Positions 37,235 through 43,740 of a stretch of DNA of 64,000 nucleotides are shown piece after piece. Position 1 is the first letter of the stretch. Each line of letters starts with the position of its first letter. Location: the NCBI GenBank assembly GCA_913064945.1, contig CAJYAN010000006.1, positions 62,001 through 126,000 of the forward strand, read 5' to 3'. The notes beneath the pieces are model-generated. The model was not told the DNA's origin. It did no database searches and saw nothing but the letters and a program-made list of their open reading frames with translations. The DNA comes from an uncultured Gammaproteobacteria bacterium. Its GTDB lineage: Bacteria; Pseudomonadota; Gammaproteobacteria; UBA6429; Thiohalophilaceae. Position numbers and translations under genes: made by a program.

Positions 37235-37410
37235 AACTAAAGGGGTCGTAGTGCTTTTATTTTAACCACCACATTGCTATAGTCATCCCGAATCTCGACA
37301 GGAAGTCGATTTCTACATACAAAAACTAAAGGGGTCGTAGTGCTTTTATTTTAACCACCACATTGCTATAGTCATCCCGAATCTCGACAGGAAGTCGATT
37401 TCTACATACA
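37235..37410. repeat. 89-bp tandem duplication before the transposase
   Basis: Units at 37235-37323 and 37324-37410 are almost identical, each starting AACTAAAGGGGTCG and ending GATTTCTACATAC. Each has TTGCTATAGT, a possible -10 region. The unit carries the left terminal repeat of the element, so the end has been duplicated. Confidence 0.9.
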
Positions 37411-38142
37411 CAAGGAACGTGTCATGCCAAGGAAACCCCGCGTCTATTTAGGCAATATCCCTGCCCATATTGTTCATCGTGGTCACAATCGTGACGCCTG
37501 TTTTTTTAGTGATGAGGATTATCTGTATTATCTGGAGTGTCTTTATCAGGGTTGTCGACGCTATACAGTACAACTACACGCCTATGTGCTGATGACGAAT
37601 CATGTTCATCTTCTTATGACCCCAGCGGATGAAGCAGGCATCTCCAGGGTGATGCAACATATCGGGCGTCTTTATGTTCGCCATATTAATCAAACCTATC
37701 GTCGCAGTGGCAGCTTATGGGAGGGGCGACATAAAGCCAGTCTCATTGAAGCCGAAAACTATCTTCTTACCTGTTATCGCTATATTGAACTTAACCCCGT
37801 CGCAGCAAATATGGTGGCTTTTCCAGAAGATTACCGATGGAGTTCTTATCAACACCATGCCTGTGGATTGACAAACCCTAACATCATTGAACATGACGTC
37901 TATGTACGCCTCGGTAGTAGTAGCACACTACGAAGTGCGGCATATAGCGCACTTTTTTCTTCACGGATTCCTCAGCAGGATATCACTCAGATTCAAAAAT
38001 CCATTAAATATAATTATCCGCTTGGCAGTGATCGCTTCCGCCAGCAGATTGAAATCGCGCTAAACAAAAGTGTCGGCTATAGCCGTTTAGGTAGACCTGC
38101 GCGTCGGTAACTGGTTAATATTAAAGCACCACGACCCCTTTT
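37328..38142 (+). mobile_element. REP-associated transposase element with terminal inverted repeats
   Basis: The left end AAAGGGGTCGTAGTGCTTTT (37328-37347, continuing ATTTTAA) matches, inverted, the right end TTAATATTAAAGCACCACGA (from 38115, continuing CCCCTTTT). These ~27-base ends enclose one Y1 transposase gene. The same right end recurs at 39995-40023 and 42662-42690 beside deleted copies, so the unit has moved as a whole. Confidence 0.8.
37424..38110 (+). CDS. REP-associated tyrosine transposase (RAYT, Y1/HUH family)
   Basis: The 228-residue IS200/IS605-like transposase has the HUH histidines in LMTNHVHLLM and, after it, the helix with the probable catalytic tyrosine near RLYVRHINQTY. 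The SLWEGRHKASLIE and YIELNPVAA stretches are hallmarks of RAYTs. It cuts single-stranded DNA at REP-like hairpins. It appears intact, with AAGGAACG before the ATG at 37424. Two broken relatives lie downstream (39582-40023 and 42331-42690). Confidence 0.93.
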   Translation: MPRKPRVYLGNIPAHIVHRGHNRDACFFSDEDYLYYLECLYQGCRRYTVQLHAYVLMTNHVHLLMTPADEAGISRVMQHIGRLYVRHINQTYRRSGSLWEGRHKASLIEAENYLLTCYRYIELNPVAANMVAFPEDYRWSSYQHHACGLTNPNIIEHDVYVRLGSSSTLRSAAYSALFSSRIPQQDITQIQKSIKYNYPLGSDRFRQQIEIALNKSVGYSRLGRPARR

Positions 38143-38903: not shown

Positions 38904-38931
38904 GTAGGTTTCTTCGAGTAGGATATTGAGC

Positions 38932-39573
38932 ATGTCGTCCTTACTCAATACCATTGGTGAACGCCAGCAGTCTTTGCTCAAGCTCTTGTTAGTTAACCAA
39001 GTGGGTATGACCGTTGACGAATTGGCCCAAGCCCTTGATATTTCGAGAAATGCTGTAGTCCAGCACTTAACTACTTTAGAAGGCTTAGGGTTTGTCCAAA
39101 ATACTATTCAGTCAAGTACCGGTGGACGCCCTAGCAAGCGATATACACTCACATCAAACGGTAAAGAGGTATTTCCGCGACATTATGGTTTGTTCGCTAA
39201 TACGCTAATTCACCTGTTACGCAAAAAACTTGGTGAGCAGGAGCTGAGTCTTTATATGGTGGAACTCGGTGAAATAATTGCCAGGCAATATCAAGCTCAG
39301 CTAGACGAAAGTGAAACCCTAAATGAAAAATTAACGGTGCTGGTTCAAATTATGCTTGAGTTAGGATATGAGGCCCGTGCAAACACCAACGATGAAGGTG
39401 CTCCTGAAATAATTGCAAATAATTGCGTATTTCATCAGTTGGCTGAAGAGTGTAAAACAGTATGTGAGCTTGATATTGCATTTATTACTTCCGCGCTAAA
39501 CGGTGCATCTGTTGATCATCGAGAGTGCATGGTTCGAGGTGGTCGTTGTTGCCGTTTTACAATCACTAACTAG
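38932..39573 (+). CDS. HTH transcriptional regulator with SufR-like cysteine cluster
   Basis: The 213-residue protein has an N-terminal winged helix-turn-helix (residues ~12-75, with DELAQALDISRNAVVQHL as recognition region and a GGRPSKRYTLT wing). Its C-terminal domain has C165, C174, C178, C199, C206 and C207. The spacing C-x12-C-x20-C-x6-CC resembles the SufR-type regulators that bind an iron-sulfur cluster. The ATG at 38932 has AGGA eight bases upstream; a TTG at 38926 is less likely. A role as a redox or iron-sulfur sensor is inferred. It is divergent from the secreted protein and upstream of the hydrogenase. Confidence 0.8.
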   Translation: MSSLLNTIGERQQSLLKLLLVNQVGMTVDELAQALDISRNAVVQHLTTLEGLGFVQNTIQSSTGGRPSKRYTLTSNGKEVFPRHYGLFANTLIHLLRKKLGEQELSLYMVELGEIIARQYQAQLDESETLNEKLTVLVQIMLELGYEARANTNDEGAPEIIANNCVFHQLAEECKTVCELDIAFITSALNGASVDHRECMVRGGRCCRFTITN

Positions 39574-39581
39574 AGGGTCTT

Positions 39582-40023
39582 GGTATTTTTATCGGGGTAA
39601 TCGACGCTATACAGTACAGCTCCACGCCTATGTCCTGATGACGAATTATGTTCATCTTCTAATGACACCAGCGAATGAAACAGACATTTCCAGGGTGTTT
39701 CAACATATCGGGCGTCGATGTCCATCCTGTTAATAAAACCTGTCGTCCAGTGGTAGCTTATGGGTGGAGCGACATAAAGCCAGTCTCATTGAAGCCGAAA
39801 ACTATCTTCTTAGCTGGTATCGCTATATTGAACTTAACTTCGTCGCGGCTTCCTCAGCAGGATATCACTCAGATTCAAAAATCCATTCAATATCAGTATC
39901 CACTCGAAAAGATCGTTTTTGCGAGCAGACTGAAATTACGTTACACAAAAGTGTCGACGATAGCCATTTAGGTAGACCTATGCATCGATAACTGATTAAT
40001 CTTAATGCACCACGTCCCCTTTT
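39582..40023 (+). pseudogene. RAYT remnant 1
   Basis: This is a degraded copy of the transposase at 37424-38110. Recognisable parts are the RYTVQLHAYVLMTN segment (His lost to Tyr in NYVHLL), the KPVSLKPKTIF region and the C-terminus with the right terminal repeat. Frameshifts break it and ~160 bases are missing between the sites equivalent to 37806 and 37966 (junction GTCGCGGCTTCC). It starts eight bases after the regulator's stop. Confidence 0.9.
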
Positions 40024-40147: not shown

Positions 40148-42220
40148 ATGATCACACTTACAATTAATGGCAGATCTATCGAAATCATTGGTGGTTCAAC
40201 GTTGCTCGATGCGGCCAGAAAAGCGGGGGTACATATCCCCACGCTCTGTCACTATCCCTGCCTGCCGTCTCATGCAGTTTGCCGAGTATGTCTCGTTAAT
40301 GTTTCTGGTGAAGATAGGCCCGTACCTGCCTGTGCCACTGATGCGAAAGATGGCGATATAGTAGAGACAGATTCCAGGGAATTACAAGAATTTCGCAAAA
40401 CAGATGTCCAGTGGCTACTGGCGCGTCACCCGAACGACTGTATGCAATGTGAAGTTAATGGTTCCTGCAAGCTGCGGAATTTTGTAAGTGAGTATCAACT
40501 TGAAGACATCTGGGAAAAAGTTCCAAGAGGTTCTGTCGAGCATCCAGAACATCGACTGACTGACCACACATCGCCGAGTATCTGGTGTGAACTGTCAAAA
40601 TGCATTGAATGCGGTTTGTGTGTAGAGGTGTGTGGCGATGCCCGACAACAACAATACGTGATTGGATTTGCAGAGCGTGGCTCAGGTCGCTTACCCGTCA
40701 CTGTTTTTGATCAATCCCTGGCTAACACTAAATGTATCTCCTGTGGTCAATGCACGCTTGTTTGTCCGGTCGGGGCCTTGATCGAGACCCCACACTGGCA
40801 CGATGTCCTCCATACCCTTGATGCACGTAGACGTGTTTCTGCAGTACAAGTTGCGCCAGCTACACGCATGGCCATTAGTGAAGAATTTGGTATGAAACCC
40901 GGTACCGTGAGTACGGGCAGGCTGATTAATGCGTTGAGACAGCTAGGTTTTGATTATGTCTTTGACACTAATTTTGGAGCTGATTTGACGGTCATGGAGG
41001 AATCAACAGAGTTACTGGCGCGTATCAAGAATCATAAGTCCTTACCACTTTTTACTTCCTGCTGTCCGGGATGGGTCAACTGGGTTGAGATTAATCGACC
41101 TGAGCTTCTGCCTCTTCTAAGTACGACAAAATCACCACAACAAATGCATGGCGCACTTACAAAGCGAGGAGCATTCGCTTATGCACTCGGCCCTGAATTC
41201 GCAGAGGGTATGACAGAACCTTACGTCGTCAGTGTGATGCCCTGCACGGCTAAGAAAGATGAAGCTGTGCGTCCTGGTGTGTCAGGAGATATAGACCATG
41301 TTTTAACAACCCGCGAACTGGCCAGGATGATTCGAGCGCGTGATATTGCGTTTGGCGCACTATCGGAGAATGGTAAATTCGATAATCCACTTGGTGAAAG
41401 TACTGGTGCTGGACAGATTTTTGGAGCATCAGGCGGGGTCATGGAAGCAGTTGTGCGTACCGCATCTCATTTCATCGGTGAGGAAAGCTCGCTTCCATTG
41501 GACTGGCATCAACTCCGCGGCGTAAGCAAGGCAGTGAAAACAGCCGACATTCCCGGCATAGGCAAAGTTGCTATATGCAATGGCATTGCCGCAGCGCAGC
41601 GTATGCTGGAAACGGAAACGTGGCGAGAGGAGTACGTCGCTATTGAGGTCATGGCATGTGTTGGTGGCTGCCTGGGGGGTGGTGGCGAACCCAAATCCAT
41701 GGAGCCAATGATTCTCGAAAAGCGCATGGAAGCAATCTATAATGTAGACAAAAATTCAGCGCGACGACGGTCATTTGAAAATCAGGACATTCAAAAATTG
41801 TATGCTACAGAATTAAAAGAACCCAATTCGTCTCGATCGCAGACATTGCTTCACACGAGCTATGCCTCTCGAAACTCAAAGAGGTTACTTTTGATGCGAT
41901 TTCTTGATTGTGTTGACAGGCGAGATGGCAGCGGTGCGGTCAGACTGTTTCATCCCGATGCATTGTGGTCAACAGCATCATCCTTTGGTGATATCCGGGG
42001 CACCTCAAATATTGAGGCGATAATCAGTAATCGGCTTCCGCCACGCAAGTATGGTCCTGAATATGCGCGTCATCGAATGGAATCCAGCGGTGATATCCAC
42101 GACCTCACGGTTATCACGCCCGCAGGTGAACGATGCAAATTTAGTATGGCGGTAGACAACATACCTGAAGGTAAACAGTCCAGGATGGTGATCAGACATC
42201 TTTTGCGGGAAGTCCTGTAA
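40148..42220 (+). CDS. [FeFe]-hydrogenase with C-terminal NTF2/SnoaL-like domain
   Basis: The core (residues 1-575) has the full multi-cluster architecture of Clostridium hydrogenase I. The [2Fe-2S] ligands are C34, C45, C48, C62. The His-ligated cluster is H94, C98, C101, C107. Two [4Fe-4S] sites are C152/C155/C158/C162 and C196/C199/C202/C206. All H-cluster motifs are present: TSCCPGW (C305, C306), MPCTAK (C366, K369) and MACVGGCLGGGG (C504, C508). A small-subunit-like segment ends near 573. Then ~115 residues (MRFLDCVDRRD..LFHPDALW..) look like an NTF2/SnoaL fold, which normal hydrogenases lack. It probably oxidises or makes H2 with a soluble electron partner. The maturases needed for the H-cluster are not in the window. 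It lies between two RAYT remnants. Confidence 0.93.
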   Translation: MITLTINGRSIEIIGGSTLLDAARKAGVHIPTLCHYPCLPSHAVCRVCLVNVSGEDRPVPACATDAKDGDIVETDSRELQEFRKTDVQWLLARHPNDCMQCEVNGSCKLRNFVSEYQLEDIWEKVPRGSVEHPEHRLTDHTSPSIWCELSKCIECGLCVEVCGDARQQQYVIGFAERGSGRLPVTVFDQSLANTKCISCGQCTLVCPVGALIETPHWHDVLHTLDARRRVSAVQVAPATRMAISEEFGMKPGTVSTGRLINALRQLGFDYVFDTNFGADLTVMEESTELLARIKNHKSLPLFTSCCPGWVNWVEINRPELLPLLSTTKSPQQMHGALTKRGAFAYALGPEFAEGMTEPYVVSVMPCTAKKDEAVRPGVSGDIDHVLTTRELARMIRARDIAFGALSENGKFDNPLGESTGAGQIFGASGGVMEAVVRTASHFIGEESSLPLDWHQLRGVSKAVKTADIPGIGKVAICNGIAAAQRMLETETWREEYVAIEVMACVGGCLGGGGEPKSMEPMILEKRMEAIYNVDKNSARRRSFENQDIQKLYATELKEPNSSRSQTLLHTSYASRNSKRLLLMRFLDCVDRRDGSGAVRLFHPDALWSTASSFGDIRGTSNIEAIISNRLPPRKYGPEYARHRMESSGDIHDLTVITPAGERCKFSMAVDNIPEGKQSRMVIRHLLREVL

Positions 42221-42330: not shown

Positions 42331-42690
42331 AGTGGCTTTTATTGTAACCACCACAATGCTCGTTTCAACATATCGGGCGTCGATGTCCATCCTATTAATA
42401 AAACCTGTCGTCCAGTGGCAGCTTATGGGAGGCGCAACATTAAGCCAGTCTCATTGAAGCCGAAAACTATCTTCTTAGCTGATATCGCAATATTGAACTT
42501 AACCTCGTCGCGGCTTCCTCAGCAAGATATCACTCAAATTCAAAAATCCATTCAATATAAGTATCCACTCGGCAATGATCGTCTCCGCCAACAGATTCAA
42601 ATGGCTTTAAACAAAAGTGTTGGCGGTAGCCATTTAGGTAGACCTGCGTATCGAAAATTGGTTAATATTAAAGCACCACGACCCCTTTTA
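42331..42690 (+). pseudogene. RAYT remnant 2
   Basis: A second deleted transposase copy. It begins with a left-end-like stretch (AGTGGCTTTTATTGTAACC), jumps to the ATATCGGGCGTCG block shared with remnant 1, has the same internal deletion junction (GTCGCGGCTTCC), and ends with the right terminal repeat, almost identical to the intact element's. The 5' half of the gene is missing. The ~110 bases between the hydrogenase stop and this remnant show nothing clear. Confidence 0.9.
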
Positions 42691-42693
42691 AGT

Positions 42694-43740
42694 ATGATGA
42701 AATTTGTTATTTACAACAACTGGCAGCAACTGCCAGAGAGTGCTCATGCACGATTTGCGCAAGGTGAGAAAGTCAATCTCTTTTTCTCGCGCCCGTGGCT
42801 TGAGAATGTAGCCGCCACACTGGATGATGCTGAGGCCCTTTTGCTGGCCTGCGTGATTTCCGACGGTAACGTGCTGGCAATCCTGCCGCTGATAATGGGT
42901 CATGGGAATACATGCTATTCACTCAAGCACCGATACACGAGTCACTATAGCCTGCTCCTGGCGGACGACGATCAGCAGCGGATTCTCACTTGTCTGGCGC
43001 AGGGTTTGAGCCAGTGGCCTATACACTCACTGCTATTGGAACCGATTGCCGATAATGACAGCAGGTTAACCGGTTTACACCAGGCCCTGGCCACCGCCGG
43101 ATATCACGGTGAACGACACTTTCGACACTATAACTGGATTTATCGCCTCCAACAGCAGTCCTATGTCGATTACCTGGCAAGCCGTCCTGCCCGCTTACGC
43201 AATACAATTGTCCGAAAAAAGCGTAAACTACACCGTGATCACGGTTACAAAATTCGCCTTTTTAGCGGCGATGAAGTTCCACTGGCTATGTCTGATTACT
43301 ATCTGGTTTATAATGCCAGCTGGAAGGCGAATGAGCAGTATGTCGACTTTCTGGACGGCGTTGTGGCAGGATTCTCACAACAGGGCTGGTCCAGACTTGC
43401 GGTTCTATATGTTTGCGGGCAACCTGTCGCGGCACAGCTCTGGTTCGTACTTCATGGCAAGGCAAGTATATTCAGGCTGGCGTATGATGAAGCGTGGAAG
43501 CAGTATTCGCCAGGCTCTATCCTGACCAGCTTCCTCATGGAATACGTGATCGATACGGACAAGGTGGACGAGATCGATTTTCTTACCGGGAATGACGCCT
43601 ACAAGCAGGACTGGATGTCGGAACGCCGGGAGTGCTTCGCCTTGAGTTGTGTAAAAAATGTAAAAACCGCGAACAGACATCAACGATTTATCGAGTTACT
43701 AAAATCAAAGATACTCAGGAAAACAATCAAACGACTATGA
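42694..43740 (+). CDS. CelD/BcsL-type GNAT-fold acyltransferase
   Basis: The ~348-residue protein shows the FemAB-like/GNAT domain of the CelD (PF13480) family: RLRNTIVRKKRKL, YNASWKANEQY, FRLAYDEAWKQYSPGSIL and EIDFLTGNDAYKQDWM. Such proteins transfer acyl or aminoacyl groups and often work in exopolysaccharide or cell-surface clusters; the substrate is unknown. The ATG at 42694 lies only four bases after the RAYT remnant, so its promoter must lie in that remnant or upstream of it. Its stop overlaps the next gene (ATGA), so they are coupled. Confidence 0.8.
   Translation: MMKFVIYNNWQQLPESAHARFAQGEKVNLFFSRPWLENVAATLDDAEALLLACVISDGNVLAILPLIMGHGNTCYSLKHRYTSHYSLLLADDDQQRILTCLAQGLSQWPIHSLLLEPIADNDSRLTGLHQALATAGYHGERHFRHYNWIYRLQQQSYVDYLASRPARLRNTIVRKKRKLHRDHGYKIRLFSGDEVPLAMSDYYLVYNASWKANEQYVDFLDGVVAGFSQQGWSRLAVLYVCGQPVAAQLWFVLHGKASIFRLAYDEAWKQYSPGSILTSFLMEYVIDTDKVDEIDFLTGNDAYKQDWMSERRECFALSCVKNVKTANRHQRFIELLKSKILRKTIKRL

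Follow-up and report, generated by a model that had tools for sequence, protein, structure and literature searches.

[FeFe]-hydrogenases are thought to require the maturases HydE, HydF and HydG. In the window analysed here, a 64,000-nucleotide stretch of DNA from an uncultured gammaproteobacterium, a first-pass annotation recognised a gene that joins a complete clostridial M3-type [FeFe]-hydrogenase to a small C-terminal domain resembling the NTF2/SnoaL fold, with no partner subunits or maturase genes nearby. This raises the questions of whether the fusion is genuine, how far it has spread, and whether its product can be a working hydrogenase.

Architecture of the fusion

The gene is a single uninterrupted open reading frame with an ATG start that encodes 690 amino acids, and both domain searches and full-length homologues confirmed that the hydrogenase and the tail are parts of one gene (Table 1). 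Judged by sequence, residues 1-575 are a group A [FeFe]-hydrogenase of the M3 domain type. They score 423.6 bits with the curated group A model TIGR02512, over its cut-off of 405.95, and their closest solved relatives are HydA1 of T. kivui and A. woodii, and CpI. The best NCBIfam model, NF040763 (group A6), gives 637 bits, under its cut-off of 765. We saw no HydB/HydC-type partners (NuoE/NuoF-like) beside the gene, whether in the window or at those loci of relatives that we read, which, together with the low NF040763 score, led us to reject an NADH-dependent trimeric HydABC enzyme of group A3/A6. A sensory HydS-type protein (group C/D) was also rejected, since Pfam finds no PAS domain and C305 is invariant. 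The CpI-type and NADH-linked M3 enzymes (CpI, 4xdc; T. kivui HydA1, 8a6t) have the same order of domains from the 2Fe-2S domain to the small-subunit domain and are about 40% identical over residues 1-575. Unlike them, however, the fusion has no HydB/HydC, carries the NTF2-fold domain, lacks HydEFG in its genome and has KKDE and GGGGEP variants of the L2 and L3 motifs.

Table 1. Features of the fusion gene and of the transposase relics on either side of it
Feature	Coordinates	Strand	Residues, ligands and motifs	Basis
Decayed transposase-element copy, just upstream of the fusion gene	39583..40023	+		82-88% identical segments to intact copy
M3-type group A [FeFe]-hydrogenase with C-terminal NTF2/SnoaL domain	40148..42220	+		ORF, Pfam, NCBIfam; full-length in relatives
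N-terminal [2Fe-2S] domain, Fer2_4	40148..40375	+	1-76; C34, C45, C48, C62	Pfam; ligands invariant
His/Cys3 [4Fe-4S] domain, NADH-G_4Fe-4S_3	40394..40507	+	83-120; H94, C98, C101, C107	Pfam; invariant
Two-cluster ferredoxin domain	40598..40777	+	151-210; C152/155/158/162 and C196/199/202/206	Pfam; invariant
H-domain, Fe_hyd_lg_C	40841..41683	+	232-512	Pfam 2.4e-80; invariant ligands
H-domain motifs			L1 TSCCPGW (C305, C306), L2 MPCTAKK (C366, K369), L3 EVMACVGGCLGGGGEP (C504, C508)	
H-domain proton relay			E285/E288/R292/S325	
Small-subunit domain, Fe_hyd_SSU	41711..41872	+	522-575	Pfam
NTF2/SnoaL-fold C-terminal domain	41873..42217	+	576-690	Pfam on homologous tails, AF2 model, structure matches
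Second decayed transposase-element copy, just downstream of the fusion gene	42335..42689	+		88% identical over 328 nt to upstream copy

The proposed likeness of the tail (residues ~575-690) to the NTF2/SnoaL fold was borne out by profile matches in homologues, by a confident model and by structure matches. The tail of the window's own protein, searched alone, gave weak SnoaL matches of 1.2e-4 to 4.6e-4, below the gathering cut-off, and among the homologous tails PF12680 was matched in 30 of 31 and PF13577 in 29 of 31 (best 9.5e-9). Structure prediction succeeded for the tail but not for the whole fusion: the tail-only AF2 model has a pLDDT of 88, whereas full-length modelling from the alignment of 31 sequences gave a poor result (pLDDT 56), which was left out of the analysis. 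The tail model matched KSI/NTF2/SnoaL structures with Foldseek E-values down to 4.8e-5 and NTF2-fold structures with VIA-align Z-scores up to 12.6 (for 3ejv, rmsd 2.8 over 114 residues). Members of the SnoaL/KSI/NTF2-like superfamily, which have the same fold, are usually stand-alone enzymes or binding proteins, whereas here the domain is fused to a hydrogenase; our literature search found no other NTF2-like fusion to a hydrogenase.

A lone-gene subfamily in Proteobacteria

What had appeared to be a single odd gene turned out to belong to a widespread subfamily. Scanning one genome for each species gave 36 loci at 68-82% identity, nearly all full-length, in alpha-, beta-, gamma- and zetaproteobacteria; the taxon labels of several of the fusion-bearing MAGs are coarse and may be wrong. 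The hosts include eight isolates (Janthinobacterium FT68W, TND4EL3 and GW458P, Pseudoduganella ginsengisoli, Aquabacterium CECT 9606, Thiomicrorhabdus zzn3, T. heinhorstiae and Alloyangia mangrovi). In a set of 96 related genomes, the full-length protein is encoded by three, at 80-81% identity, and pieces of it lie at the ends of contigs in three others; in a sample of 369 genomes of the class the H-domain occurs in seven, two of which have the fusion (the window's own genome and G246). The recurrence of the same fusion in dozens of unrelated assemblies excludes a frameshift or assembly join of two genes, a concern voiced at the first pass.

In a maximum-likelihood tree, in which the outgroup branches are long, the fusions form one clade with 100/100 support, set well apart from tail-less enzymes by a stem that is 3.4 changes per column long; they are only 37-43% identical overall to classical enzymes. 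Because every full-length member that we read has the same tail, the fusion is ancestral to the clade. The tree and loci show a monophyletic, lone-gene subfamily of M3-type [FeFe]-hydrogenases in Proteobacteria, and their best reading is that it has been horizontally spread and selected. No conserved operon partner was found across the relatives' loci read, only local recurrences, and such a variable neighbourhood fits the transfer of a single gene. A plasmid search found no copies at 60% identity or more: its long matches to residues 1-575 were ordinary clostridial-type hydrogenases, and the shorter ones NuoG and formate dehydrogenase.

Is the gene, then, a non-functional or decaying acquisition, or an artefact of assembly? 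The window's gene does sit between two decayed transposase copies, and two other genomes hold remnants of the fusion. In G005 (L087, about 2245-2456) there is a relic, of which an apparent N-terminus remains beside tail residues 609-672, indicating gene loss within the window's own family. Aquabacterium sp. CECT 9606 has, ~18 kb from its intact gene, a second, gutted copy (L066, 8001-9365), in which a single open frame still encodes residues 1-156, 277-398 and 512-688 but has lost most of the ferredoxin clusters and the L3 ligands. Against this, dozens of genomes keep the gene full-length and in frame, with invariant ligands and low dN/dS, so that decay is refuted at the level of the family and is highly improbable as an explanation of this locus. 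The fusion gene is shown, from codon comparisons, to be under purifying selection: among the 14 closest pairs, dN/dS was 0.05-0.2 for the hydrogenase part and, in most of them, about 0.2-0.35 for the tail; tail values of 0.5 and 0.8 in two very close pairs rest on few changes.

The window also has an apparently intact copy of the transposase element (37424-38110; element region 37235-38142). Its protein resembles REP-associated tyrosine transposases, and at 37235-37412 an 89-nt end sequence stands twice in tandem. The two decayed copies form direct repeats on either side of the hydrogenase gene. A FemAB/GNAT-like ORF (42415-43740) has its called start inside a transposase relic, from which its first ~90 residues derive, and the alignment with its homologue in L033 does not begin before residue 94; the true start is therefore probably downstream. 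Upstream of the hydrogenase gene and on the same strand lies a SufR/MsvR-like winged-helix regulator with a Cys-containing C-terminal domain (38926-39573), which is not kept beside the gene in relatives.

An intact active site and missing maturases

Conservation was counted in 31 aligned family members. The cluster ligands listed at the first pass, C34/C45/C48/C62, H94/C98/C101/C107, C305, C306, C366, C504 and C508, are all present and invariant in these members. Indeed, none of the 16 accessory-cluster ligands, among them the eight Cys that bind the two ferredoxin-type clusters, varies in any of the 31, and the same holds for the H-cluster residues C306, C366, C504 and C508, the proton-transfer C305, the proton relay E285, E288, R292 and S325, and the diiron-pocket residues M364, K369, F425 and M502. 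We take their counterparts in CpI to be C299/C300, E279, E282, R286, S319, M353, K358, F417 and M497 (partly by alignment offset). Nar1/NARF-like proteins, which have a hydrogenase-derived fold in common with the fusion, are without the diiron pocket and proton relay. Since pocket and relay are complete throughout the family, a NARF/Nar1-like derivative was rejected, as it had been at the first pass. Beside the H-cluster ligands, however, the family has invariant changes of its own, D371, V505, E514, K516 and S517, and its motifs read KKDE for KKYE/KKFE, MACVGGC, and GGGGEP for GGGQP, followed by K516 and S517. Such changes could mean that the cofactor or the reaction is a different one.

The absence of maturases, correctly noted for the vicinity of the gene, extends to the whole genome. 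HydG (TIGR03955) was found neither in the window's own genome, which is 100% complete, nor in any of the 40 genomes of its family, 16 further fusion genomes or G246. HydF (TIGR03918) was absent from 20 fusion genomes, with a match in T. maritima as working control, and HydE (TIGR03956) from 21, with a match in the tail-less G150; the tail-less G159, G270 and G275 also gave matches as positive controls. For HydG the fusion genomes tested number about 24, and for all three models absence of a match is not proof. Two candidates in the window's own genome were rejected: the sole HydE-like match, a weak one, is BioB, next to BioF, and HydF-like matches cover the GTPase part only, far under the cut-off. 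HydG is over the cut-off in four of five tail-less hydrogenase genomes of the same class, so that the tail and the missing maturases coincide in every case examined. The tail-less locus with no HydG match (L073, G368) comes from a 1.0-Mb genome and may represent a MAG gap or another orphan.

The genome search for hydE, hydF and hydG that the first-pass annotation had proposed thus gave the outcome that it considered to argue against an active enzyme. An ordinary working hydrogenase is not supported for the window's own genome or for any fusion-bearing relative tested: membership of group A stands by sequence, activity through the known HydEFG route does not. It could be argued that the enzyme is ordinary and that its maturases are too divergent for the HMMs or lie on unsequenced DNA, given that several of the genomes are incomplete MAGs and that absence by HMM is not biochemical absence. 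We consider this unlikely. The HydG model reaches distant relatives, with matches in E. coli (presumably ThiH), yet has none in the complete genome of the window or in the isolates; three separate proteins would all have to have been overlooked in about 20 genomes; and the evidence that would refute this explanation, closed genomes of several hosts without any tyrosine-lyase-type radical SAM protein, is nearly complete. Supply of CO and CN by the [NiFe] Hyp machinery was rejected as a general source, because 19 of 21 fusion genomes lack HypD and just 2 have it.

No natural way of making the 2Fe subcluster without HydEFG is known, so a genome lacking all three maturases is normally taken to hold an inactive hydrogenase or one with another role. 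Mainly because no alternative maturation is known, the protein may instead have been repurposed, its H-domain holding only a [4Fe-4S] cluster or another pocket ligand, to serve as an electron-transfer, sensing or reductase protein whose NTF2 domain binds the substrate or signal. The lack of HydE, HydF and HydG in all fusion genomes tested, the mostly aerobic hosts, the invariant residues peculiar to the family that adjoin the ligands (D371, V505, E514) and the frequent binding of small hydrophobic ligands by the tail fold all favour such a change of role, for which there is a precedent in Rhodospirillum rubrum, where the missing HydEFG of an orphan [FeFe]-hydrogenase was read as a sign of inactivity or another role (PMC4967309). 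It is hard to reconcile with the residues for proton delivery and for holding the diiron unit, C305, E285, E288, S325, R292, K369, M364 and M502, which are invariant in 31 of 31, and we regard repurposing as a serious possibility that is nonetheless probably not the case. We slightly favour, tentatively and at just short of even likelihood, a hydrogenase whose active site is assembled without HydEFG, mainly because these residues are strictly kept: a relay and a diiron pocket that stay invariant, in proteins so distant overall from the classical enzymes, are difficult to account for unless the site carries out proton/H2 chemistry. Counted against this explanation are the absence of HydEFG, the family-specific changes near the ligands, the lack of an operon partner in most hosts, and gene loss. 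Its stricter form, in which an active H-cluster with its 2Fe, CO and CN unit is made by a new route without HydEFG, possibly aided by the NTF2 domain, is somewhat more doubtful than either.

Proposed function and significance

Neighbouring genes weakly suggest that, when oxygen is low, the protein helps to dispose of electrons carried by reduced ferredoxin. In three lineages the gene lies next to genes for ferredoxin-linked 2-oxoacid oxidoreductases. A set of GltD-like, KorA, KorB and CBS-domain genes, of which KorA/KorB are a 2-oxoacid:ferredoxin oxidoreductase, lies next to it in Gallionellaceae (L038, 2745-7964) and Oxalobacteraceae (L050, 8396-13622), in a different order in these two betaproteobacterial lineages, and L062 has a PFOR with a dihydroorotate-dehydrogenase-like protein beside the gene. 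Elsewhere, the gene directly upstream encodes an acetoacetyl-CoA reductase in Janthinobacterium, Pseudoduganella has a similar reductase close by, and a BFD-like [2Fe-2S] protein is encoded upstream in L033 and L036.

As a hydrogenase, the fusion would be soluble and of the monomer type, and its electrons would come from low-potential carriers, such as ferredoxin reduced by 2-oxoacid:ferredoxin oxidoreductases. The electrons would pass through four accessory clusters to the H-cluster-like site and be exchanged there with protons/H2, so that the enzyme might act as a redox valve under oxygen limitation. The diiron subsite would then necessarily be built by a route other than HydEFG, and the presence of any diiron centre at the site is the weakest step of this proposal. 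By analogy, the NTF2 domain is most likely a dimerisation or small-ligand module that would stabilise or gate the enzyme. CbA5H of Clostridium beijerinckii likewise belongs to group A and carries an additional, uncommon domain, an SLBB domain that serves dimerisation and stability (PMC13397568), and the NTF2 domain may be comparable to it in role, though not in homology. The SLBB domain, however, is N-terminal and unrelated in fold to the tail, CbA5H was produced with HydEFG, and its extra loop Cys is not seen in the TSCCPGW motif of the fusion.

The family, widespread in oxygen-using Proteobacteria, has apparently not been described before; a literature search on [FeFe]-hydrogenases with SnoaL or NTF2-like domains or missing HydEFG, in which most subscription papers lay outside the search, found no description of the fusion. 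A subfamily with intact sequence in mostly aerobic, cultivable hosts makes it testable whether HydEFG is the only route to an H-cluster. If it is not, the family would give access to an unrecognised maturation pathway and perhaps to hydrogenases compatible with oxygen; if it is, the fusions would be a large family of repurposed hydrogenases to which current databases would assign H2 production.
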